From: a virus
IMG/VR virus record: IMGVR_UViG_3300032087_000708
Coordinates: 1 to 27,835 of that record
Direction: 5' to 3' (one strand)
Length of the DNA stretch: 27,835 nt
The notes below the pieces were generated by a model. The model ran no database searches and was not told the DNA's origin. It was given only the letters and a program-made list of their open reading frames with translations. A program made the position numbers and the translations under genes. This document shows positions 3,168-25,571 of this stretch, piece after piece. Within the stretch, counting starts at the first letter, position 1, and every line of letters starts with the position of its first letter.

Positions 3168-3243
3168 GTATACGTATATGTATACACAGAAATACACAGA
3201 TCAGGAAAAATGAAGTGTTAACCACATTACATATATAGTGGTT
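3168..3243. repeat. Two small inverted repeats
   Basis: GTATAC (3168-3173) is repeated at 3180-3185 and is self-complementary. AACCAC (3220-3225) pairs with GTGGTT (3238-3243) across 12 nt. Between them ACACAGA occurs twice in direct orientation. No gene is present. Confidence 0.35.
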
Positions 3244-3321
3244 TACAGAGAATAGTGTTCTTAGAAAGGGGTGTTTTGAAGAACGATTTCCCTAAAATTA
3301 AACATATATAAAGATTAGGGG

Positions 3322-3334
3322 TTGACACGTGTCA
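3322..3334 (+). promoter_or_regulatory. TTGACA box under a perfect 12-bp palindrome
   Basis: TTGACA at 3322-3327 is a consensus -35, but the best -10 at 17 bp is only AAAACT (3345-3350); TATATA begins 22 bp away. TGACACGTGTCA (3323-3334) is a perfect palindrome over the -35, a typical repressor-operator arrangement. A rightward promoter for the middle genes is plausible but not proven by the spacing. Confidence 0.45.
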
Positions 3335-3372
3335 CAGAATGTGTAAAACTATATAAAACAGATTTAGGTGGC

Positions 3373-3470
3373 CTACACTTTAACTGTTACACGTACAATG
3401 CTACACTTTAAATGTACCATTTACTAAATATAATAACAATAATAACTAAGACACGTACAATGTAGTCACT
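3373..3470 (+). promoter_or_regulatory. Direct repeats upstream of the rightward genes
   Basis: CTACACTTTAA occurs at 3373-3383 and 3401-3411, each followed by a TGT. ACACGTACAATG occurs at 3389-3400 and again at 3451-3462, each followed by a related ACTT-type stretch. TATAAT (3429-3434) lies downstream of the second copy, whose TTTAAA falls at the -35 distance. This arrangement could be an activator-dependent promoter or iteron-like origin repeats. Confidence 0.5.
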
Positions 3471-3525
3471 TAAACTATACGTTTAGTGATATTAATTTGT
3501 ACTATTTTGTAATTAAGTATTGACA

Positions 3526-3738
3526 ATGGCTAAAAAATCAGTAAAACTATATACAGACAATGTTCTTGAAGAATTTTATCGTCACGTATTAGACGAGAAC
3601 ATTGATAATTTGCATATCCCTCATAGTGATGTATTTTATGTACGTGAAGCTGTACAGAATCATTATGGTAGACCATTTACTTTAGAGCATGTAGAGTGGG
3701 CTATGAGAGCAGAAGGATGGACTGATGGCAATACCTGA
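3526..3738 (+). CDS. Hypothetical protein, 70 aa
   Basis: First gene of the rightward arm. The frame is open from a TTG at 3520, but the ATG at 3526 (MAKKSVKLYTDN) is the more likely start; no clear Shine-Dalgarno sequence precedes either. The sequence is mildly acidic and predicted helical, with HSDVFYVREAVQNHYG in the middle and the C-terminal pattern TLEHVEWAMRAEGW. The spacing of helices could suit a small DNA-binding fold, but I recognise no family. The end overlaps the next gene by 14 bases. Confidence 0.65.
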   Translation: MAKKSVKLYTDNVLEEFYRHVLDENIDNLHIPHSDVFYVREAVQNHYGRPFTLEHVEWAMRAEGWTDGNT

Positions 3739-4018
3739 TCGTGTAAAGAATAAAATGAGGCAGTTAGGTTTAAGTGGTGTTAATAAACCTAAACGTACTC
3801 CTAGTCACAGTACTAAATCACATGCAGTAATGGCATCAGAAGGTGGCAAGTATAAAGTTGTACGATTTGGACAACAGGGTGTTAAGGGTGCAGGTAAGTC
3901 TCCTACAACAGCCAGAGATAAAGCTCGTAAACGGAGCTATTATGCAAGACACAATGCACAAGGCAAGCCAACAACTAAGTTGAGTGCCAAGTATTGGTCA
4001 CACAAAGTTAAATGGTAA
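3725..4018 (+). CDS. Small very basic conserved phage protein, 97 aa
   Basis: I recognise this protein type from many marine phages: KPKRTPSHSTKSHAVMA at about 22-38, KYKVVRFGQQGVKGAG at about 42-57, then a Lys/Arg-rich stretch, and the C-terminal signature SAKYWSHKVKW. It may be the family catalogued as DUF6321, but I am not sure of the number. No function is established. High positive charge and invariant Gly suggest nucleic-acid contact or a minor virion role; this is inference. It overlaps the upstream gene by 14 bases and is 12 bases from the next. Confidence 0.75.
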   Translation: MAIPDRVKNKMRQLGLSGVNKPKRTPSHSTKSHAVMASEGGKYKVVRFGQQGVKGAGKSPTTARDKARKRSYYARHNAQGKPTTKLSAKYWSHKVKW

Positions 4019-4030
4019 GAGGATAAACCA

Positions 4031-5218
4031 ATGGGAATACTTAGTGGAGCACGTAGGGCTGCTAAAGCAGCTAAAAAAGCCAGCACTACAGCACAAGATA
4101 GAGTTAAAAGAGAAGCAGGTGTAGATACTAGGTTCTCTAAAAAAGGCTACAAACAGTATATGGATGTTGTAGACAGAAATGCATTTGATGAAGAGATGCA
4201 AATTAAATTAGCTAAACGTGCAGCTAAAGAAGGTATGACTAAAAAAGAAGCTAGTGCTATGGCTTCAGAACAATTGCAAAAACTTAGAGCTGCTAAGAAA
4301 GTAGATACCCGAACAGACAATGTTGTTAAAGGTGTACGTGAAGCTCGAAATGAAATGCGAGATGAAATTAAAGAAAAACGTAAAAGTAAAAAAGGAACAC
4401 AGGGTACAGGTTTTAGGTTTGCTACAGGTAAAACTACAACAGAAGAAGCTGCAGGTCGTATAAATGCCCGTACTGGTGGAGATGACAGATTTGCATACGA
4501 ACAAGAATATGGTCGTGGTGGTAAAGAAAAAATTACACAAGGCAGTAAATCCTTTGCACGTATGGAAGAAGCAGCATCTAAAGGTTCACGTGAACGTTCT
4601 AAGGTCGTATCTCAATTAGAAACTAAAAGAGAAAAAGGTGATATTACAAAAGAAGAACGTACTCTTTTGAATCGTCTTAATCGTTTGTCTCGTGAGTCAG
4701 ACCAAGCACGTACTCGTAAAGCTGGTGCTACACTTAGTTCAGAGGCTCGTAAAGATAAGGGTGTGTCTGTACAGGGAATGGAAGGTATAGAACGTATCGG
4801 TGCTAAACCTAAACTAAAAGACAGTGACATGATGGTAGGTAATACTACAAATGGTGTTACTAAAGATGGTGAGGTTATTGGCAATCCTACGGACAATCAA
4901 ATTAAAATGGTTATACGTAATCTAGAGGCTAGAGAACGGTTAAGTGCAGAAGCTAAACGTAATCTTGCTAAACTAAAACGTATGACACAAAGACAAAAAC
5001 AAGATGCAGCTATACGTAAAATGGAACGTAATTTAAAGGATACGGGTAAAGATAGGCAAGAACGTAATAAGGGTGGGCTTATTGCACCTAAAACAAATCA
5101 AAAAGGTTTGAAGAAACTTCCTCAAGCAGTACGTAATAAAATGGGCTACATGAAACGTGGTGGGATGATGAAGACGGGTCACATGGACATGCGTAAAGGT
5201 GGTATGTTCTACAAGTGA
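4031..5218 (+). CDS. Lys/Arg-rich hypothetical protein, 395 aa, with GGM-rich tail
   Basis: Highly charged, Lys/Arg/Glu-rich, mostly helical or disordered, with no membrane segment. The N-terminus is basic (SGARRAAKAAKKA). The C-terminal tail changes character: KGGLIAP, then MKRGGMMKTGHMDMRKGGM before the stop. The same RGGM/KGGM motif recurs in the 45-aa gene at 5735 and in the 146-aa gene at 8605. Its size and charge would suit an internal virion or DNA-condensing protein, but no family is recognised. The stop overlaps the GTG start of the next gene (GTGA). Confidence 0.7.
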   Translation: MGILSGARRAAKAAKKASTTAQDRVKREAGVDTRFSKKGYKQYMDVVDRNAFDEEMQIKLAKRAAKEGMTKKEASAMASEQLQKLRAAKKVDTRTDNVVKGVREARNEMRDEIKEKRKSKKGTQGTGFRFATGKTTTEEAAGRINARTGGDDRFAYEQEYGRGGKEKITQGSKSFARMEEAASKGSRERSKVVSQLETKREKGDITKEERTLLNRLNRLSRESDQARTRKAGATLSSEARKDKGVSVQGMEGIERIGAKPKLKDSDMMVGNTTNGVTKDGEVIGNPTDNQIKMVIRNLEARERLSAEAKRNLAKLKRMTQRQKQDAAIRKMERNLKDTGKDRQERNKGGLIAPKTNQKGLKKLPQAVRNKMGYMKRGGMMKTGHMDMRKGGMFYK

Positions 5219-5796
5219 GCATAGAGAAAGACTTACGTAGCTGGTCACTCAATGTGTTAGAAGTACCTAACGAAGCATTGGGTGGCCTACCTGCTTGCCC
5301 TTTTGCTAAACAAGCATGGAAACAACGTAAAGTAAATGTTGTAGAAACTACTGGTTTAGTGTATACTACAGAAAAAGAAGCTAAAGTATTCCATAATCAC
5401 AACTATGAATTAGTTGTAGTTGCATCTTATAATTATCCTGACATAGAAATGTTTAATTACTATGTTGATTATCTTAACGATAAGTATTCCGAAAAAGATT
5501 TGCACATAATGGGATTTCATCCTGACTATGGTGCAGAAGATGCAGAGTTAGATTTTTTATATGAACACGATTGGGAATCTAGCATAGACAAAGAATATGC
5601 TATGTTGTTTATTCAATCGTTAAGTCAAGTAGACGATGCAAGTTTACAATTAGAAAAACTGGGGTACTACAAAGTATACCCAGAAGAAGAGTATAAATCT
5701 CTCGTATTAGATCGTAGGGCAAGGAGACAGTCTAATGGCAATGAAACCCAGAGCAATGAAAAAGAAGACACCAATGCGTGGAGGCGGTATGGGTAA
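5215..5796 (+). CDS. Hypothetical protein, 193 aa, with CPFAK motif
   Basis: Starts at a GTG that shares GTGA with the upstream stop, so translation is coupled. Residues 8-40 read WSLNVLEVPNEALGGLPACP followed by FAKQAW. This PxLGGLPxCPFA motif recurs in phage proteins and loosely resembles the CPFAK region of DUF1415 proteins. The remainder looks like a mixed alpha/beta domain (about 60-175) with an acidic middle (DYGAEDAELDFLYEHDWESS). Function unknown. The last 62 bases are also read in another frame by the 45-aa gene. Confidence 0.7.
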   Translation: MSIEKDLRSWSLNVLEVPNEALGGLPACPFAKQAWKQRKVNVVETTGLVYTTEKEAKVFHNHNYELVVVASYNYPDIEMFNYYVDYLNDKYSEKDLHIMGFHPDYGAEDAELDFLYEHDWESSIDKEYAMLFIQSLSQVDDASLQLEKLGYYKVYPEEEYKSLVLDRRARRQSNGNETQSNEKEDTNAWRRYG

Positions 5797-5872
5797 AAAA
5801 CCCATGATGCGTGGTGGCATGATGCCTAAAAAGAAAATGATGCGTGGTGGAATGGGTAAGAAAAAGAAATAA
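5735..5872 (+). CDS. 45-aa Met/Gly/Lys/Arg repeat protein in an overlapping frame
   Basis: An AGGAG Shine-Dalgarno sequence (5722-5726) precedes the ATG at 5735. The product is almost entirely Met, Gly, Lys, Arg and Pro, with three MRGG repeats (MRGGGMGKK, MMRGGMMPKKK, MMRGGMGKKKK). It overlaps the end of the 193-aa gene by 62 bases in a different frame. The MRGGM motif matches the C-terminal tail of the 395-aa protein (KRGGM, RKGGM), arguing that it is real and not a chance frame. Similar Met/Gly/Lys-rich proteins occur in other marine phages; no function is known to me. RNA, DNA or membrane binding are possibilities only. Confidence 0.65.
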   Translation: MAMKPRAMKKKTPMRGGGMGKKPMMRGGMMPKKKMMRGGMGKKKK

Positions 5873-5886
5873 CGGGTATTCCGTAT

Positions 5887-5962
5887 TTGCAATTCTAACT
5901 ATGTATAAACTATGATATAACTATCTCCATAAGCCTTGTTAGGGCTAACATAAAGGAGATAG
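5887..5962 (+). promoter_or_regulatory. Promoter and Shine-Dalgarno-sequestering hairpin
   Basis: TTGCAA (5887-5892) and TATGAT (5911-5916), 18 bp apart, form a good sigma70 promoter; TATAAC (5916-5921) overlaps. Transcription should begin near 5922-5928. CTATCTCC (5921-5928) is the perfect complement of GGAGATAG (5955-5962), which contains the Shine-Dalgarno GGAG just before the ATG at 5965. A smaller stem (AGCC 5932-5935, GGCT 5943-5946) lies inside. The hairpin would hide the ribosome-binding site, as in RNA thermometers or other translational switches. If transcription starts beyond 5928 the arm would be lost. Confidence 0.65.
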
Positions 5963-5964
5963 AA

Positions 5965-6117
5965 ATGCTAACACGTATATATAATTTCATTAAAGAATCA
6001 AATGAAAAACGAGTAGCTTATTGGCAGCTACAAAATATGTCAGATAAAAATCTAAAAGATATGGGAATAAGTCGTGGTGAAATCTACAACAAAATCTACG
6101 GTGAACAAAGCAGGTAA
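5965..6117 (+). CDS. DUF1127 protein (YjiS-like), 50 aa
   Basis: A 50-residue frame missed by length cut-offs. Residues 17-40 match the DUF1127 signature: AYWQLQNMSDKNL, then KDMGISRGEI, corresponding to the family pattern of a Leu-rich helix, LSDxxLxDIGxxR and a following Ile. DUF1127 proteins are abundant in alphaproteobacteria. Those studied, such as CcaF1 of Rhodobacter, bind RNA and affect RNA processing and growth under stress. A phage copy might steer host RNA metabolism; this is inference. It has its own promoter and a hairpin over its ribosome-binding site, unlike its neighbours, which suggests an independently regulated cargo gene. The next gene begins inside it. Confidence 0.8.
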   Translation: MLTRIYNFIKESNEKRVAYWQLQNMSDKNLKDMGISRGEIYNKIYGEQSR

Positions 6118-6259
6118 TTATACTAATCCTACAATGCGTAAAAACCTTTTTAATAAAATTAAATCTGGCACTAAGGGAGGTAAAGCTGGGCAGTGGTCTG
6201 CACGTAAAGCCCAAATGCTTGCAAAACAATACAAAGCTAAAGGTGGAGGATACAGATAA
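6074..6259 (+). CDS. Small basic conserved phage protein, 61 aa
   Basis: Recognisable from residue 11 onward: NKAGNYTNPTMRKNLFNKIK, then GGKAGQWSARKAQMLAKQYKAKGGGYR. This NYTxPxMRKxLFxxIKxGxKGGKxGQWSARKAQ pattern recurs in many phages and some large DNA viruses. Function is not established; the charge suggests nucleic-acid binding. The frame has no ATG before the conserved region. GTG codons at 6074, 6077 and 6101 are possible starts, and 6074 is used here. It overlaps the DUF1127 gene by 44 bases in another frame, and its stop overlaps the next start (TAATG). Confidence 0.75.
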   Translation: MVKSTTKSTVNKAGNYTNPTMRKNLFNKIKSGTKGGKAGQWSARKAQMLAKQYKAKGGGYR

Positions 6260-7302
6260 TGCCTAGCAAACCCAAACCCAAAACAACACGTAAAGCAAAA
6301 ACAACAAAAACAAAAAAGACTCGTGCTAGATCATACAATGTAGGTGGTCAAGTAGCTCCTGCAAAAGCAGAAAGAGCAGAAGCAGTACCTGCCCCCAAGG
6401 CTCGTAAAGCTAGTAATGCTGCCACACCCACAAAAATAGCAGAAGCTATTCCTGCATCTAGATTTAATGCTGCTAATTCTGCTGCAGCTAAGAGAGCTAA
6501 TGCTGCCCCAGCTAGGAAAGCTAATCTTGCTCCACAAGAATTGATAAATGCTTTTAATGCAAGTCAAAGAGGTAAGGCTGGAAAGTCTACCTTTACTCCT
6601 AGCCAACGTCAATTACAACAAGCACAGGCAGGAATTAAAGGTACTATACCTAAACGTCAAATGCAGCAACAAATGCTACAAGAACAAGCACTTCGAATGC
6701 AACAAGAACAAGCACTTCGAATGCAACAACAAGCAGGAGGAGGCAGACAACAGCAAGGTAAGTATGGTTTTGCAAACCCAAAACTTGATCAACGGTATGG
6801 TCTAACGATGAAAGCAGAACAGGATTTTAACAAACAATTAGAAGAAAAATACAAAGGCCAACGAAATGTTCAACTTACCCCATCTGAAAAACGAAAAGCC
6901 ATGAGTTTTGGTCTACGTCGAGCAAGAATGGATTTACAACGGCCTAATATTTCTGCTAGAGACAGACAAAATGTTATGAATCAAATTCGTATGCTACAAC
7001 AAGAAATGCGTAAATTAGGTGCACCCGTCAGAGGCAGAGGTGGTAGTGGTACAACTGGTCCTAGTCGAGGAACTCAAATTAGGGGTGGAAAATCAGATGC
7101 ACGTATTCCAAGAGGTGGTAATCGTACAACTGGTCGTCCTACTAGACCAAGACCACCAGCACCACCAGCAGGTTTAGGTACTGGTCCAACACGTAATCGT
7201 CCAGTTAGGGGTAGAGGGGGTAAACCAACTACACGTCCTAGACCAAGGCCCACACCAACTAGACGTACTCCAAGAAGTAGAAATAGGTTTATGGGTCGTT
7301 AA
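6259..7302 (+). CDS. Very basic low-complexity protein, 347 aa
   Basis: A Lys/Arg/Pro/Ala/Gln-rich protein with no recognised domain. The N-terminus has Lys/Thr runs (KPKPKTTRKAKTTKTKK), then Ala-rich repeats (40-95), a Gln/Met-rich stretch (about 135-170) with a perfect 24-bp tandem duplication, a more ordered helical middle (about 175-250), and an Arg/Gly/Pro-rich tail (GRGG, TRPRP, RPRPRP). The composition resembles eukaryotic-like nucleic-acid-binding tails and could serve DNA condensation or RNA binding; this is inference. It shares a TAATG junction with its upstream neighbour. Confidence 0.7.
   Translation: MPSKPKPKTTRKAKTTKTKKTRARSYNVGGQVAPAKAERAEAVPAPKARKASNAATPTKIAEAIPASRFNAANSAAAKRANAAPARKANLAPQELINAFNASQRGKAGKSTFTPSQRQLQQAQAGIKGTIPKRQMQQQMLQEQALRMQQEQALRMQQQAGGGRQQQGKYGFANPKLDQRYGLTMKAEQDFNKQLEEKYKGQRNVQLTPSEKRKAMSFGLRRARMDLQRPNISARDRQNVMNQIRMLQQEMRKLGAPVRGRGGSGTTGPSRGTQIRGGKSDARIPRGGNRTTGRPTRPRPPAPPAGLGTGPTRNRPVRGRGGKPTTRPRPRPTPTRRTPRSRNRFMGR
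6679..6726 (+). repeat. Perfect 24-bp tandem duplication
   Basis: Two identical 24-base copies (6679-6702 and 6703-6726) encode QEQALRMQ twice in the 347-aa basic protein. In-frame and perfect, so probably recent. Confidence 0.85.
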
Positions 7303-14009: not shown

Positions 14010-17000
14010 ATGCTAAAAGACGAAGGTGGTCAAATCGACAAAGAGTCAGGGAATAAAGTTCCTGTAGGCGGCACTAAAAAAGGTGTACGTGATGACATAC
14101 CTATCAATATTAGTGAGGGTGAGTTTATTTTTCCTGAAGACGTTACACGTTACATAGGTTTAAAAGAACTTATGAACATGCGTCAAGAAGCCAAGATGGG
14201 TTTAAAAAAGATGGAAGCTATGGGTTTAATGGGTAATGCAGATGAAGCCACTATTCCAGATGATCTACCTTTTACTATGGACGATTTAATTGTAGTTCAA
14301 GTAGCAGATAAAGAAGGTAGTGAAAAAGATCGTGCAGATATGAAGACAGGTGGTCTAGGATCACGATCCCGTTTGCTTTCCACACCACAAGTACGTCCAC
14401 AGCCTATCGTAGTAGAGGAAGGTGAAAAAGTAGTTACTGATATAATGGAAGCTGTAGAATACCGTAATGCTGCAGGTAATAGTATTATTATTATGCACTA
14501 CGGTGGTTCTCCTATGTATCCTATACCTGCTGGATATTCACGTTATGATCCTGAAACTGGTGAATTGGGAGAGGTAGTAAATCCAGTAACAGAAACTGTA
14601 AAAGAAATTAATGATGTAGTAACACGTGCTTCACAGTCTGGTAAAGACAAAGCACCAGAATTACCTGAAAATGAATTTACTAAGGCAGGTAGTTGGGAAA
14701 ATTCTCCATTAGATATGTATATTAAAGAAGCCAAAAAGTTTTCGGATGGTTCTTCATCTATAGCTACTTCTATAATGGGTGTAATGGGTGCATCTGGTTT
14801 TGGGCTATTAACTTACGGACTCGTTAAATTAGAAAAACGTAAAATTTTAAATACCATTGATGATCGTATAAAAAATGCAACAGGCAAACAAAAACAAGAA
14901 TTAATTAGAATACGTGATACTTTGCTTGGAAAAATTAAAGGGCCAAATTTTATTGAAAAAATTACAAATTTTGTGGATGGTATCCTTGCACCAGAAGAAG
15001 TAAAAACAGAAGTAAAAAATACGGCAATAAAAGATGTAAACCAATCAGCAACAGTAAATAACCCAGAAGAAGTTTTACCATATGGATTAACTAAAACTGA
15101 TTTAGATGCATTTAGAGGTCAAGATGTATTTGATATAAGTCAACAAGCACCTTTAGATGCATTTAGTGGTCAAGATGTATTTGATATAAGTCAACAAGCA
15201 CCTATAACTAATCTTTTAGGCCCAATTGAAGAAGTTGCAGCTAGAGATGTGCCAGTTGAAACTAGTCAAACTTTAACAGGTGATAACATAGTTGGGTATC
15301 AAGATGGATATGAAATTAGGTATGCACCTGATCCTGAAGGAAATCCAAAGCAAGATTACTATGAAATAATTAATACAAAAGGAGAAGTAGTAAATTATGA
15401 AACTACAACGAAACGTTCTATGGATCCTAATGAATCATTAAATGGTCTTAAAAAAAGTATATCTAATCTTGTTAAAAGTGGTCAAATTCCAGATGGTGGT
15501 ATAAGATATGACACGCAAGGAATGTCTAGGCCAAGTGCAGTACCAACAGCAACTGCACAACAACCCATAGAAGAAACACAAACTTACGACCAAGAACTGT
15601 TTAATAATTTAAAAAACACAATATCTTTAGGAAAAATAGATGATCCTAGATTGCCGCCTGAATATAGAGGTGGTGAAGGTAGTGAAGGATACAACAGAAT
15701 AATAAGTGAGGCACAAAAATTTTATGGTAAAAACATTGTACAAGATGTATTAAATAGTCTTACTCCCGTTGTACCTACAGCTACAACTACAACTCCTGTA
15801 CAGCAATCTAGAGTTAGCCCACGTTTAGGATATGAATCAGGTCAAGATGTACTACAAAGTGTTGCCCCTTATGTATCTTCTACTATAGGCCAACCCTCTA
15901 TAAGTCAAATTGATTATAGTAATATTCAAACATCTGGACCACCTAGTGTGCCTGATGCTCTTCGTACTCCATTAGGAACTGCAGCAGCAGCAAGTGCTTT
16001 TGAACAAGAAGCCACATTGCCGCAACCGTATGATTCATCTGTAGACGATCTTATTAAACAAACAAGAGAGGCATTAGGTACGTCTGATCAATCTATCGAA
16101 GAAACAATTGCTAGAGCAAAAGAAGTTATAAGCAAAGACCAACCTTTACGTATTCCAGATTATTCTAATTATCCTAGAATTACTGAAGGTACTACATTTG
16201 TTTCTCCTACACAGGATCAAACAGAACAAACATTTTTTGGAGAGGGAGATATTGCTTCTTTATATACACCTACTGTAACAACTACAACACCTAGTGTAGA
16301 TGAAGATCCTTTTGCATATATGTTTGAAACACCAATTACAATTCCAGAAGATCAAACAGAACAAGCATTTTTTGGATTAGGAGACCCAGATATAGACTTT
16401 ACTACTCCTACAGTAACTCCTAAAGTAGAAATTGATTTTGATCCTTCTCAAACTCTAGGTGATCCTGCAATTAGTGGTATGCTACCTTCAACACCAACAG
16501 CAACACCTATAGTATCCAGTGTATCTCCAACAGAAACAGGTTTAAGTAGTTTTGAACAAGCCTTTGCAAATGCTAGAGCAGCAGGACAAGATACATTCCC
16601 ATTTGAAGGGAAAACCTATACTACAAAACTAGCAAGTGATACTGAACCTTCTGTAAAAGCTGCATCTGATGATAAGTATGATGGTGCTGTTGTAACTGGT
16701 ACTAAAATGACAGAACTTCTTGGTGGATTAAAGGAAGGTGAAACCAAACTTAAATCAGAAGTCGAAGCTGATAATTTAGCTAATGTTATAGGTGTATCTA
16801 GACAAGAATATGATACTATGTCAGAGTATGAAAAATCACAGGCTTTAGCTGGTAGTAGTAGTGCTCAAGAAGATAGAGAGAGAAAACAGGCAATTGAAGC
16901 ACTAGAAACTCTTGCATCTAAACCTAGACCACCTTCAGGATTAGGTAGAGATGAAGCAAAAAGATGGCTTCAAGAAAATGGATACGGAAGCATAGATAAA

Positions 17001-17063
17001 AAAGAAGCACCAGATTACATTAGAAAATTACAAGAGGATTGGGATAGAGTGAATAAAAAATAA
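14010..17063 (+). CDS. Large virion-type protein, 1017 aa, with conserved N-terminal SEGEF module
   Basis: The N-terminus (about 1-80) is a module I recognise in many large marine-phage proteins: EGGQIDKESGNKVPVGGTKK, then DDIPINISEGEFIFPEDVTR and YIGLKELMNMRQEAK. A single hydrophobic segment lies near 248-270 (SIMGVMGASGFGLLTYG). The remainder is mostly low-complexity, rich in Thr, Pro, Gln and Ser, with a 17-residue tandem repeat (FRGQDVFDISQQAP-type) and a second repeat pair (DQTEQTFFGEGD, DQTEQAFFGLGD). A more ordered charged C-terminus ends at VNKK. Placement between portal and scaffold suggests an internal or ejected virion protein, perhaps membrane-acting; this is inference. Confidence 0.75.
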   Translation: MLKDEGGQIDKESGNKVPVGGTKKGVRDDIPINISEGEFIFPEDVTRYIGLKELMNMRQEAKMGLKKMEAMGLMGNADEATIPDDLPFTMDDLIVVQVADKEGSEKDRADMKTGGLGSRSRLLSTPQVRPQPIVVEEGEKVVTDIMEAVEYRNAAGNSIIIMHYGGSPMYPIPAGYSRYDPETGELGEVVNPVTETVKEINDVVTRASQSGKDKAPELPENEFTKAGSWENSPLDMYIKEAKKFSDGSSSIATSIMGVMGASGFGLLTYGLVKLEKRKILNTIDDRIKNATGKQKQELIRIRDTLLGKIKGPNFIEKITNFVDGILAPEEVKTEVKNTAIKDVNQSATVNNPEEVLPYGLTKTDLDAFRGQDVFDISQQAPLDAFSGQDVFDISQQAPITNLLGPIEEVAARDVPVETSQTLTGDNIVGYQDGYEIRYAPDPEGNPKQDYYEIINTKGEVVNYETTTKRSMDPNESLNGLKKSISNLVKSGQIPDGGIRYDTQGMSRPSAVPTATAQQPIEETQTYDQELFNNLKNTISLGKIDDPRLPPEYRGGEGSEGYNRIISEAQKFYGKNIVQDVLNSLTPVVPTATTTTPVQQSRVSPRLGYESGQDVLQSVAPYVSSTIGQPSISQIDYSNIQTSGPPSVPDALRTPLGTAAAASAFEQEATLPQPYDSSVDDLIKQTREALGTSDQSIEETIARAKEVISKDQPLRIPDYSNYPRITEGTTFVSPTQDQTEQTFFGEGDIASLYTPTVTTTTPSVDEDPFAYMFETPITIPEDQTEQAFFGLGDPDIDFTTPTVTPKVEIDFDPSQTLGDPAISGMLPSTPTATPIVSSVSPTETGLSSFEQAFANARAAGQDTFPFEGKTYTTKLASDTEPSVKAASDDKYDGAVVTGTKMTELLGGLKEGETKLKSEVEADNLANVIGVSRQEYDTMSEYEKSQALAGSSSAQEDRERKQAIEALETLASKPRPPSGLGRDEAKRWLQENGYGSIDKKEAPDYIRKLQEDWDRVNKK
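15102..15203 (+). repeat. 51-bp tandem duplication in the 1017-aa gene
   Basis: Copies at 15102-15152 and 15153-15203 differ by one base (AGAGGT versus AGTGGT), changing Arg to Ser. Each encodes LDAF(R/S)GQDVFDISQQAP. In frame and recent. Confidence 0.9.
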
Positions 17064-18016: not shown

Positions 18017-18044
18017 TTGACATATTAGTTATTTATGTTATAAC
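18017..18044 (+). promoter_or_regulatory. Strong promoter for the capsid gene
   Basis: TTGACA (18017-18022) and TATAAC (18039-18044) are 16 bp apart, a near-consensus sigma70 promoter 6 bases after the scaffold stop. The same TATAAC -10 occurs in the DUF1127 promoter and in the leftward promoters. A TATAAT lies a little further downstream (18051-18056) and may be a second -10. It would boost coat expression over the upstream operon. Confidence 0.75.
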
Positions 18045-18059
18045 TATATGTATAATGAG

Positions 18060-18176
18060 TATTAGGTTAGCCCCTATATGGATTACCTAACCTAATACTT
18101 ACCCTAGCAAACAACATATTCTTTCGGACAACCTAATGTCTCAAGGCCCGTTATGAACAGTGTAGGCCAACACTGT
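18060..18176 (+). ncRNA. Structured leader of the capsid mRNA
   Basis: TATTAGGTTAG (18060-18070) pairs perfectly with CTAACCTAATA (18087-18097) over a 16-nt loop. ACAGTGT (18157-18163) pairs perfectly with ACACTGT (18170-18176) over 6 nt. GACA and TGTC between them could form a third small stem. The leader runs about 200 nt from the promoter to the capsid ATG and contains no convincing gene. No U-tract follows, so these are not terminators. An mRNA-stability or regulatory role is likely. Confidence 0.55.
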
Positions 18177-18259
18177 AATTAATGCACCCTAGTAGAATTA
18201 GCCTCTGTATAGTATAGTTAGTTTTGCATCTGTTTGCTATATGCTAAAGGAGAAATACA

Positions 18260-19357
18260 ATGGCATTCACAGCAGCCGCAGGTCACGGAAACTTACCTAA
18301 TGGTAATTTTAGTCCCGTAATCTACTCCAAACAGGTGCAACTTGCATTCCGCAAAGCATCTGTTGTTGAGGCAATTACTAACTCTGATTATTTCGGAGAG
18401 ATTGCACAAATGGGTGACTCAGTAAAAATCATCAAAGAACCTGAGATCACCGTTAAAGCCTATGAACGTGGTACAACTATCACACCACAAGATTTGGATG
18501 ATGAAGACTTTTCATTGACCATTGACAAAGCAAACTATTTTGCATTTAAAGTCGATGATATTGAAGAAGCTCATTCACATGTAAACTTCCAAAGTCTTGC
18601 AAGTGATCGTGCCGCATATCGGTTGGCAGACCAAATGGACCAAGAAGTTCTTGGATACCTTTCTGGTTTTTCACAAGCTGCACTTCATGCAAATGCAAGT
18701 ACAGTTAATACATCTGTAAACGGTTCTAAAGCCGTATCAACTGCTTCTGATGGTGCAAACCTAGTTGGTGCAGAATTGCTGGCAACTATGTCACTTGATG
18801 CATCTGACTTTACAAACTCCAGTGGATCAGCAGGTTCAGCTAACCAATCAATTGGTATTGAGCCACGTGCAGGTGGTGCTACGGCTGCAAAGTCAAGCAC
18901 AGCAGGTAATGCATTTCCATTGCAAATCATTGCCCGTATGTCACGTTTAATGGATCAGCAAAATGTTGATACACAAGGACGTTGGCTCGTATTGGACCCG
19001 GTATTTATTGAGGTTCTGAAAGACGAAGATTCACGTCTTCTAAATTCAGACTTCGGTGGTTCTGGACTTCAAAACGGTTTGGTGCTAAATAACCTACATG
19101 GGTTTAAAATTTATAGCTCAAACAACCTTCCATCTTTGGGTACAGGTCCATCTACTACTGGTGGTTCTAATGCCTCAAACATGGGTGTTATTGTTGCAGG
19201 ACATTCATCTGCTATTGCAACTGCAGAGCAGATTAATAAAACTGAGACATATCGTGACCCTGACAGCTTTGCTGACATTGTTCGTGGTATGCATCTATAC
19301 GGTCGTAAGATTCTTCGTCCAGAAGCAATCGTTACTGCAGCATACAACTTGGCATAA
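18260..19357 (+). CDS. Major capsid protein (P22-coat-like, HK97 fold)
   Basis: A 365-residue coat protein. The N-terminal half is characteristic of a marine phage coat family: NFSPVIYSKQVQLAFRKASV, then YFGEIAQMGDSVKI, AYERGTTITPQDLDDEDFSL and DIEEAHSHVNF, then ASDRAAYRLADQMDQEVLGY. The middle insertion (about 140-220) is Ala/Ser/Gly-rich. The C-terminus has GRWLVLDPVFIEVLKDE, then GLVLNNLHGFKIYSSNNLP, and DPDSFADIVRGMHLYGRKIL, then RPEAIVTAAYN. A strong AAAGGAGAA ribosome-binding site plus its own promoter fits the high demand for coat. It follows the scaffold gene, as expected. Confidence 0.93.
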   Translation: MAFTAAAGHGNLPNGNFSPVIYSKQVQLAFRKASVVEAITNSDYFGEIAQMGDSVKIIKEPEITVKAYERGTTITPQDLDDEDFSLTIDKANYFAFKVDDIEEAHSHVNFQSLASDRAAYRLADQMDQEVLGYLSGFSQAALHANASTVNTSVNGSKAVSTASDGANLVGAELLATMSLDASDFTNSSGSAGSANQSIGIEPRAGGATAAKSSTAGNAFPLQIIARMSRLMDQQNVDTQGRWLVLDPVFIEVLKDEDSRLLNSDFGGSGLQNGLVLNNLHGFKIYSSNNLPSLGTGPSTTGGSNASNMGVIVAGHSSAIATAEQINKTETYRDPDSFADIVRGMHLYGRKILRPEAIVTAAYNLA

Positions 19358-24023: not shown

Positions 24024-25571
24024 ATGTTAGGTTTTGCACCATTATCCACCTTACCTTTTTCAGATGATGGTGTAAGTGTTGTAGAGTATAGCCTTGATTT
24101 AGGTCAAGGATCATTTACATTTGCAGGGCAAACTGTCGGTGTCGTAGCTAATAATAGGGCATTAAATCCCGGCACATTTACACTAACAGGTAATGATGTA
24201 GGTCTTGTAGCTAATAATATTGCCGTAGGACAAGGCTCATTTACACTAACTGGTCAGTCTGTAGGTTTAGTTGCAAACAATTTAAGTATAGGCCAAGGAT
24301 CATTTACCCTTACAGGGCAAGATGTAACACTTACAAGAAATATAATTGTTTCAGCAGGTCAAGGTTCATTTACACTAACTGGTCAAAATGTTGGTTTAGT
24401 TGCAAACAATCTTGATATAGGCCAAGGATCATTTAGTCTTACAGGGCAAGATGTAGGGTTAGTAGCCAATAATATAACTTTAAACAACGGTTCGTTTACA
24501 CTAACTGGACAAGACGTTGGTTTAGTAGCTAATAATATAGCTTTAAATTCTGGTTCTTTTACCCTTACAGGGCAAAATGTAGGACTTGTTAATAATAACA
24601 TTTCTATTGGTCAAGGATCATTTACCCTTAGTGGACAAGATGTAACAAAGGGTATATCTAAAGAATTAAATCAAGGTTCGTACACATTTGCTGGACAAAC
24701 CGTTGGTGTCGTAGCTAATAATAGAGCACTTAATCCCGGTACATTTATACTGACAGGTAATGATGTACGGTTAATAGCAAATAATCTAGCAGCTAACCAA
24801 GGGTCATTTACTCTTAGTGGACAAGATGTAACATTAAACTCAACCCGATCTTTTGTTTTAGATCAAGGTTCCTTTACCTTAACGGGTCAAAATGTAAACA
24901 TTATAAACAATAATATCCAGTTAGCTAATGGATCATTTACATTAACAGGTCAAGATGTAGGACTTGTTAATAATAATTTACAAATTGAACACGGGTCTTT
25001 TGTACTTACTGGACAAGATGTAAACTTAATAGACAATAATATTGTTCTTTCTAATGGCTCGTTTACACTAACAGGACAAGACGTAACATTTGTAAAAAAT
25101 GTAACCGTTGTAGCAGACCAAGGATCGTTTACATTTACAGGTCAAGATGTACTGAAAAGTATATCTAATGTTATAGACCAAGGTAGCTTTGTATTAACAG
25201 GTCAAAATGCAAGGCTTATAGCAAACAATCTTTCTATTGGTCAGGGTTCGTTTACGTTAACTGGTCAGAGTGCTGATCTAAACATTGCAAGAGAAGTAAC
25301 GTTTAGTATTACAGGACTGTCTATAAATACTAATACAGTTACAGTATCTACTGAAATATTTGTATATGATCCAGATAGCTACTCAAAAGAAAATACTGTT
25401 TATTTAGTAGAACAAGATAGGCAAACTAAAGCACACGTAATTGAAGAAAATAATGTGATACACTTAGTAGAGCAAGACAGAAGAAATACTGTTTATGTGG
25501 TAGAGCCTGTTAACTTTACAGTGTACATAGAAAAACAAGATAGAGATAATATAGTATATATTGCTGCTTAA
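24024..25571 (+). CDS. Repeat protein with 19 GSFTLTGQ units, 515 aa
   Basis: After a 27-residue head, residues 28-427 are nineteen repeats of 20-22 residues with the core (Q/N)GSFTLTGQDVGLVANN. Each predicts one or two short beta strands, so a beta-solenoid or fibre is likely. Units 1-2 and 10-11 are near-identical (TFAGQTVGVVANNRALNPGT), marking a duplicated block of nine units. The C-terminus (about 450-515) has four copies of a VYLVEQDR-type strand (YLVEQDRQTK, HLVEQDRRNT, YIEKQDRDN). Similar repeat proteins occur among phage tail genes. A tail appendage or surface-binding role is likely, not proven. The start abuts the previous stop. Confidence 0.8.
   Translation: MLGFAPLSTLPFSDDGVSVVEYSLDLGQGSFTFAGQTVGVVANNRALNPGTFTLTGNDVGLVANNIAVGQGSFTLTGQSVGLVANNLSIGQGSFTLTGQDVTLTRNIIVSAGQGSFTLTGQNVGLVANNLDIGQGSFSLTGQDVGLVANNITLNNGSFTLTGQDVGLVANNIALNSGSFTLTGQNVGLVNNNISIGQGSFTLSGQDVTKGISKELNQGSYTFAGQTVGVVANNRALNPGTFILTGNDVRLIANNLAANQGSFTLSGQDVTLNSTRSFVLDQGSFTLTGQNVNIINNNIQLANGSFTLTGQDVGLVNNNLQIEHGSFVLTGQDVNLIDNNIVLSNGSFTLTGQDVTFVKNVTVVADQGSFTFTGQDVLKSISNVIDQGSFVLTGQNARLIANNLSIGQGSFTLTGQSADLNIAREVTFSITGLSINTNTVTVSTEIFVYDPDSYSKENTVYLVEQDRQTKAHVIEENNVIHLVEQDRRNTVYVVEPVNFTVYIEKQDRDNIVYIAA
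24105..25304 (+). repeat. 63-bp-type tandem repeat array
   Basis: Nineteen in-frame units of 60-66 bases (mostly 63) encode the GSFTLTGQ repeats. The protein is more uniform than the DNA, since synonymous codons vary between units, so selection on the protein is implied. The recurrence of units 1-2 as units 10-11 shows a higher-order duplication. Confidence 0.9.

Follow-up and report, generated by a model that had tools for sequence, protein, structure and literature searches.

The lysozyme-type leader is a textbook case from bacteriophage T4, where it stands before a few genes. Long early transcripts of T4 carry the genes e, soc, 49 and I-TevI in silent form; translation occurs from RNAs made at local late promoters (PMC3014915). 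In the read-through RNA, the Shine-Dalgarno sequence or the AUG is buried in a hairpin; the hairpin's 5' strand is missing from the local transcript, which is translated, as is best documented for e. For T4 lysozyme, the effect is about 100-fold (PMC3014915). In the open-access papers searched, leaders of this type were described only for T4 and its relatives.

Two activities have been published for DUF1127 proteins, namely RNA binding by CcaF1 of R. sphaeroides and binding of the sensor kinase PhoR (PMC12501420). An mRNA leader has been described for a DUF1127 gene of S. meliloti, where transcription is attenuated via a translated uORF (PMC12218461). Among the papers pairing 'DUF1127' and 'phage', no title or abstract describes a phage-borne gene, and the papers searched on the HMO-2011 group mention neither promoters nor DUF1127.

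The stretch of viral DNA analysed here (27,835 nt, called the window) carries a DUF1127 gene whose leader is proposed to be a promoter-choice translational switch of the T4 gene e/soc/I-TevI kind. The probability of this reading is put at roughly 70%. As in T4, the Shine-Dalgarno sequence or the AUG would be buried in read-through RNA, and the local transcript is predicted to lack the 5' strand of the hairpin. RBS burial, compensatory pairing and a promoter within or over the 5' strand, as in gene e of T4, were found by prediction or in the sequence. The differences concern the phages (HMO-2011-type phages of marine alphaproteobacteria), the gene (DUF1127) and the promoter, which consists of TAWAACTA and a TAACGGG box, whereas T4 uses the late promoter TATAAATA, absent from the phage leader. 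Furthermore, the start site and the translation difference are predicted here and were measured in T4. By analogy, the leader would work like those of T4 without being of the same family. With the S. meliloti gene it would share control by the mRNA leader. The means differ, as the phage has a short hairpin on its own Shine-Dalgarno sequence, and its predicted own leader of about 36 nt holds no ATG, unlike the uORF-dependent leader of S. meliloti.

The gene, its product and its phage

Judged by its proteins, the window comes from an HMO-2011-type phage and covers part of its genome. Its TerL shares 86% identity with the protein of Roseobacter phage CRP-345 and 82% with that of Puniceispirillum phage HMO-2011, and the portal protein agrees (83% and 80%, respectively). 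The DUF1127 gene lies on the rightward strand, with the terminase about 4 kb downstream, and its place upstream of the terminase genes is the same in nine roseophages compared by annotation. A profile search detected DUF1127 in 11 of 12 HMO-2011-type isolates (CRP-1, 2, 3, 9, 13, 207, 212, 235, 345, 603 and 738); from HMO-2011 itself, a 35-kb part of which was examined, this search gave no match. The annotation names the product DUF1127 in one of the nine isolates that tblastn found. Immediately upstream of the leader, the window holds a 45-aa ORF rich in Met, Gly and Lys (5735-5872), and a similar Met/Lys/Gly-rich stretch precedes gp65 in HMO-2011.

The assignment of the 50-aa frame to DUF1127, first made by a sequence-only reading of the window, was borne out by the HMM search it had suggested: the match to Pfam PF06568 scores 27.2 bits, above the cut-off of 23.3. 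All 56 of 56 diverse phage members also match Pfam DUF1127 (E <= 0.001). A structure model of the product shows three helices at moderate confidence (pLDDT 79). A search of PDB with the DUF1127 profile returned no significant match; the C-terminal part of SAM domains weakly resembles the profile (E 0.06-0.8), and one phage member also matches Pfam SAM families. Cellular DUF1127 proteins, such as CcaF1 of R. sphaeroides, small Agrobacterium proteins and YjiS (PMC12501420), are of the same Pfam family and, like the phage protein, small and basic. In a genome scan, the window protein matched only five cellular proteins, all of them distant (identity <= 51%). Either RNA binding or PhoR binding would make sense for a phage DUF1127 protein, and the role in RNA metabolism suggested earlier is one of the two.

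Hairpin and predicted promoter elements of the leader

The features of the leader and of the gene, all on the + strand, are as follows.

5870..5876, + strand: TAACGGG box, 39 nt upstream of the -10 element, with an IC of up to 2.15 bits at fixed distance
5916..5923, + strand: TATAACTA, -10 element of the DUF1127 promoter (TATAAC at 5916-5921, TG at 5913-5914), overlapping the 5' arm of the hairpin
5921..5928, + strand: CTATCTCC, 5' arm of the hairpin and anti-Shine-Dalgarno, from pairing, fold and covariation
5928..5929, + strand: predicted start of the DUF1127 promoter, placed 7-8 nt after TATAAC from the -10 position
5932..5946, + strand: apical stem-loop AGCCUU-GUU-AGGGCU, from the fold; equivalent stems of other sequence occur in many relatives
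5955..5962, + strand: GGAGATAG, 3' arm with the Shine-Dalgarno sequence GGAG at 5955-5958, from pairing, fold and opening-cost scan
5965..6117, + strand: DUF1127 gene, 50 aa, three helices predicted

The two arms CTATCTCC and GGAGATAG are perfectly complementary, as had been noted from the letters alone, and folding of the leader confirmed the pairing. The region 5915-5990 folds at -16.2 kcal/mol (z -2.96), and one of 200 shuffles folds as well. No known riboswitch or thermometer family of Rfam 15 was matched by the whole window or, at lax thresholds, by the leader.

The hairpin was compared among relatives in a set drawn from viral contigs by four scans, three based on protein and one on a DNA pattern, to which the isolates and a few host matches were added. 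This set comprises 339 DUF1127 ORFs with 192 distinct leaders in 62 leader clusters, of which 58 are left once the four matches from host genomes are set aside. These 58 clusters come from marine phages and conserve the hairpin, as do 11 of the 12 HMO-2011-type isolates. In nearly all leaders the upstream arm pairs with the Shine-Dalgarno sequence; in CRP-2, CRP-603 and their kin, it pairs with the start codon region instead. The spacing of the arms ranges from about 10 to about 45 nt, and the Shine-Dalgarno or start region always lies in the 3' arm. The loops differ widely in sequence and length and show no conserved core of an aptamer-like kind.

Homologous leaders keep the pairing through compensatory changes, in agreement with the sequence-only reading. 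In an alignment of 45 clusters, both sides changed in six of nine pairs. Cells with changes on both sides number 18, against 4.6 +/- 1.8 in shuffled data (0/500), counts that are inflated by the shared ancestry of the clusters, which are not independent. Exchanged arms include TATCTCC/GGAGATA, CTACTCC/GGAGTAG, TATCCTC/GAGGATA, TTACC/GGTAA, GTCTCCG/CGGAGAC and AACTCTCCTTAGT/ACTAAGGAGAGTT. In the pairs that hold GGAG, changes in the left arm are mostly C to U, so that a G-U pair is kept, which fits an RNA rather than a DNA operator. RNAalifold gave no consensus structure on the gapped alignment, and a fixed-register count was used instead.

The first part of the 5' arm is constrained differently from the rest. 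With the 58 leader clusters aligned on the arm, TAWAACTA is nearly fixed (86-100% conserved per position), and the remainder of the arm varies with compensation. The hexamer at the -10 is TATAAC in 44 clusters, TAAAAC in eight and TATAAT in six. That the gene has its own promoter, as the sequence-only reading proposed, is supported, but the elements it named, TTGCAA (5887) and TATGAT (5911-5916) at a spacing of 18, are in the wrong register. They match 9 of 12 positions, and shuffled sequences give more such sites (10.2) than the region does (5). Moreover, the TATGAT positions are mostly 45-66% identical across the 58 clusters, against 86-100% for the overlapping TAWAACTA.

The TAACGGG box is a probable activator or upstream promoter element. 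When spacers of 33-45 nt were allowed, the distance from the box to TAWAACTA in viral contigs was 38 (62 times), 39 (35 times) or 44 (once). The pattern of box and TAWAACTA alone leads to DUF1127 ORFs in 85 of 88 distinct matches by an automatic rule and in two more by inspection. Of 78 distinct sequences from the search with box and -10, 72 were new to the data set; the same fold difference between read-through and own RNA is seen among these matches. Because the consensus -35 (TTGACA) is missing and the box stands at a fixed distance, the promoter is probably activator-dependent; its TATAAC also lacks the T at the sixth -10 position.

Two other ideas on the leader were dropped. The hairpin does not appear to be a cassette placed before other genes, as the leader-like DNA-pattern matches all precede DUF1127 ORFs; in these searches L393 and L473 were likewise DUF1127, and L397 was a chance match. 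As for a host origin, the four leaders compared, from the five distant DUF1127 genome matches, lack the TAWAAC hairpin.

Independent support for TAWAACTAT as a -10 region comes from other promoters of the phage. The combination TTGACA-16-TAWAACTAT occurs exactly three times in the window, always rightward, and is absent from the reversed control.

3322..3352, + strand: promoter TTGACA-16-TAAAACTAT, from which read-through RNA probably comes
3520..3550, + strand: promoter TTGACA-16-TAAAACTAT, which overlaps the first rightward gene at its start
18017..18047, + strand: promoter TTGACA-16-TATAACTAT, before the major capsid gene (18260-19357), used as the yardstick for the -10

The promoter at 3520-3550 is conserved in HMO-2011, CRP-345 and CRP-1 and has TACAAC in CRP-2 and CRP-207. 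Its TTGACA abuts the ATG (3526) of the first rightward gene, with the -10 within the coding sequence. The capsid promoter is the same in HMO-2011, CRP-345 and CRP-1, with TAAAAC in CRP-2 and TACAAC in CRP-207, and all of them have TTGACA at 16 nt.

Predicted read-through and own transcripts of the leader

RNA from the upstream genes, started at the promoters at 3322 and 3520, would carry both arms of the hairpin; no rightward terminator-like site was found in the region 3200-6600. In this read-through RNA, (A)CTATCTCC would pair with GGAGATAG, the Shine-Dalgarno sequence would be buried and DUF1127 would be poorly translated. As TATAAC (5916-5921) overlaps the 5' arm, initiation at about 5928/5929 would make an RNA without the arm. 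This own transcript would have a free Shine-Dalgarno sequence and a short 5'-terminal stem-loop, modelled as the apical stem-loop at 5932..5946. DUF1127 would then be made only when its own promoter fires, despite its place inside a long operon. In a second architecture (CRP-235, CRP-738, L080 and L048), a perfect TGnTATAAT occupies the loop of the hairpin and the whole 5' arm lies before it; the consequence would be the same, an own RNA without the 5' arm.

The predicted folds agree with this scheme. Across the 58 clusters, the mean probability that the Shine-Dalgarno sequence is unpaired in read-through RNA is 0.10; shuffling the upstream sequence raises it to 0.40 (Wilcoxon 7e-11). For RNA that begins at the predicted start, placed by assuming the usual 6-7 nt between the -10 and the start, the mean is 0.663. 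With a start 5 nt earlier, as TTGCAA-18-TATGAT implies, it is 0.245, so that the Shine-Dalgarno sequence would be mostly buried. Opening the stretch from the Shine-Dalgarno sequence to the AUG costs about 11 kcal/mol when the RNA starts 40 nt upstream and 3.6 kcal/mol when it starts at the predicted +1; for later starts the cost stays nearly constant. In most clusters this +1 is the last base of the anti-Shine-Dalgarno, and the partners of the Shine-Dalgarno sequence end there. For the window, the predicted probability of an unpaired Shine-Dalgarno sequence in read-through RNA is 0.00, and the opening cost drops from 10-11 to 2.0-3.8 kcal/mol. The value for its own RNA depends on the length of coding sequence folded (0.24 with 36 nt, 0.70-0.86 with 60-90 nt), and in several isolates the AUG of the own RNA stays partly paired.

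Among the alternatives, the best surviving one is a signal-responsive leader, although it seems rather unlikely. Here, the own transcript would begin before the 5' arm and so include the hairpin, which would open in response to temperature, a ligand, an sRNA or a protein. The conserved and covarying hairpin would suit it, as would the regulated leaders of DUF1127 genes elsewhere, such as the S. meliloti attenuator (PMC12218461). Moreover, in a subset of relatives another TATAACTA stands about 15-17 nt farther upstream; TTGCA precedes it at 17 nt, and this element could start an RNA that retains the hairpin. However, this upstream -10 is missing in the window and in many clusters, whereas TAWAACTA in the arm is nearly universal; the loops lack a common core, no Rfam family fits, and the loop architecture places the promoter within the hairpin itself. 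The sequence-only reading had proposed such a signal-opened hairpin. Its separate translational control, with a hairpin that hides the Shine-Dalgarno sequence, probably stands; the opening by a signal is unsupported because the conserved -10 lies either across the 5' arm or within the loop, so that the own transcript most likely lacks the arm. Control by ligand, temperature or sRNA is unnecessary, though it keeps a low probability. A start downstream of 5928 had been named as refuting that reading; the predicted start at 5928/5929 counts against a hairpin in the own transcript but not in read-through RNA.

Autogenous control, in which the DUF1127 protein would bind the hairpin of its own leader to repress or mature the mRNA, is less probable again. 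The gene is almost always accompanied by the hairpin, and CcaF1 of R. sphaeroides is a DUF1127 protein that binds RNA (PMC12501420). Nonetheless, loops and apical stems share no sequence across clusters, a short-loop class has no apical stem, and the promoter overlap suffices to explain the conserved parts. Very little likelihood is left for an ordinary weak-expression leader, or a 5'-end stem that stabilises the mRNA, with no regulatory switch. 5' stems are frequent on phage genes, and a small stem-loop opens the own transcript predicted for the window, but the Shine-Dalgarno sequence is buried far more than in shuffles and, in most clusters, the arm ends where the transcript is predicted to start. 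Least likely of all is a DNA operator, with the inverted repeat as a repressor-binding dyad at the promoter it overlaps and the RNA hairpin as a by-product, given the variable arm spacing, the mostly preserved G-U pairs and the constant place of the Shine-Dalgarno or start region in the 3' arm.

The promoter-choice switch remains the preferred reading. A wider version of it is offered tentatively and is somewhat more likely to fail than to hold. In this version, an activator-dependent promoter built from the anti-Shine-Dalgarno arm would have evolved at least twice, by arm overlap and by loop placement. Throughout a dominant group of marine phages, it would serve DUF1127 almost exclusively and time the release of a host-like regulator that binds RNA or PhoR to a precise point in infection.

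If the switch is real, promoter-embedded RBS hairpins would be a general phage solution to silence one gene within an operon, with a covarying version in 11 of 12 cultured HMO-2011-type phages and hundreds of environmental contigs. It would also suggest that expression of DUF1127 is timed; how this widespread family acts, by binding RNA or a sensor kinase, is disputed. In addition, TTGACA-16-TAWAACTAT would provide a promoter motif for an abundant marine phage group.

Further features of the window

Downstream of the capsid promoter, the capsid leader of about 210 nt (18052-18259) has a strong predicted structure (z -3.66) and shares conserved blocks with HMO-2011, CRP-345, CRP-1, CRP-2 and CRP-207. 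It has no Rfam match and is possibly an undescribed leader RNA.

The region of leftward genes holds five perfect palindromes GTCCAAYRTTGGAC (1017-1030, 1352-1365, 1900-1913, 2225-2238 and 2880-2893), against an expectation of 0.00 in shuffles; they are possible operators of a phage regulator. Inverted repeats rich in AGAGAG/CTCTCT and TATCT occur at 2693-2760, just upstream of the leftward gene 2064-2654. A 51-bp tandem duplication (15101-15202, 98% identical) lies within the ORF 14010-17063, and a tail-region ORF at 24024-25571 is made of many 63-bp (21-aa) tandem repeats.
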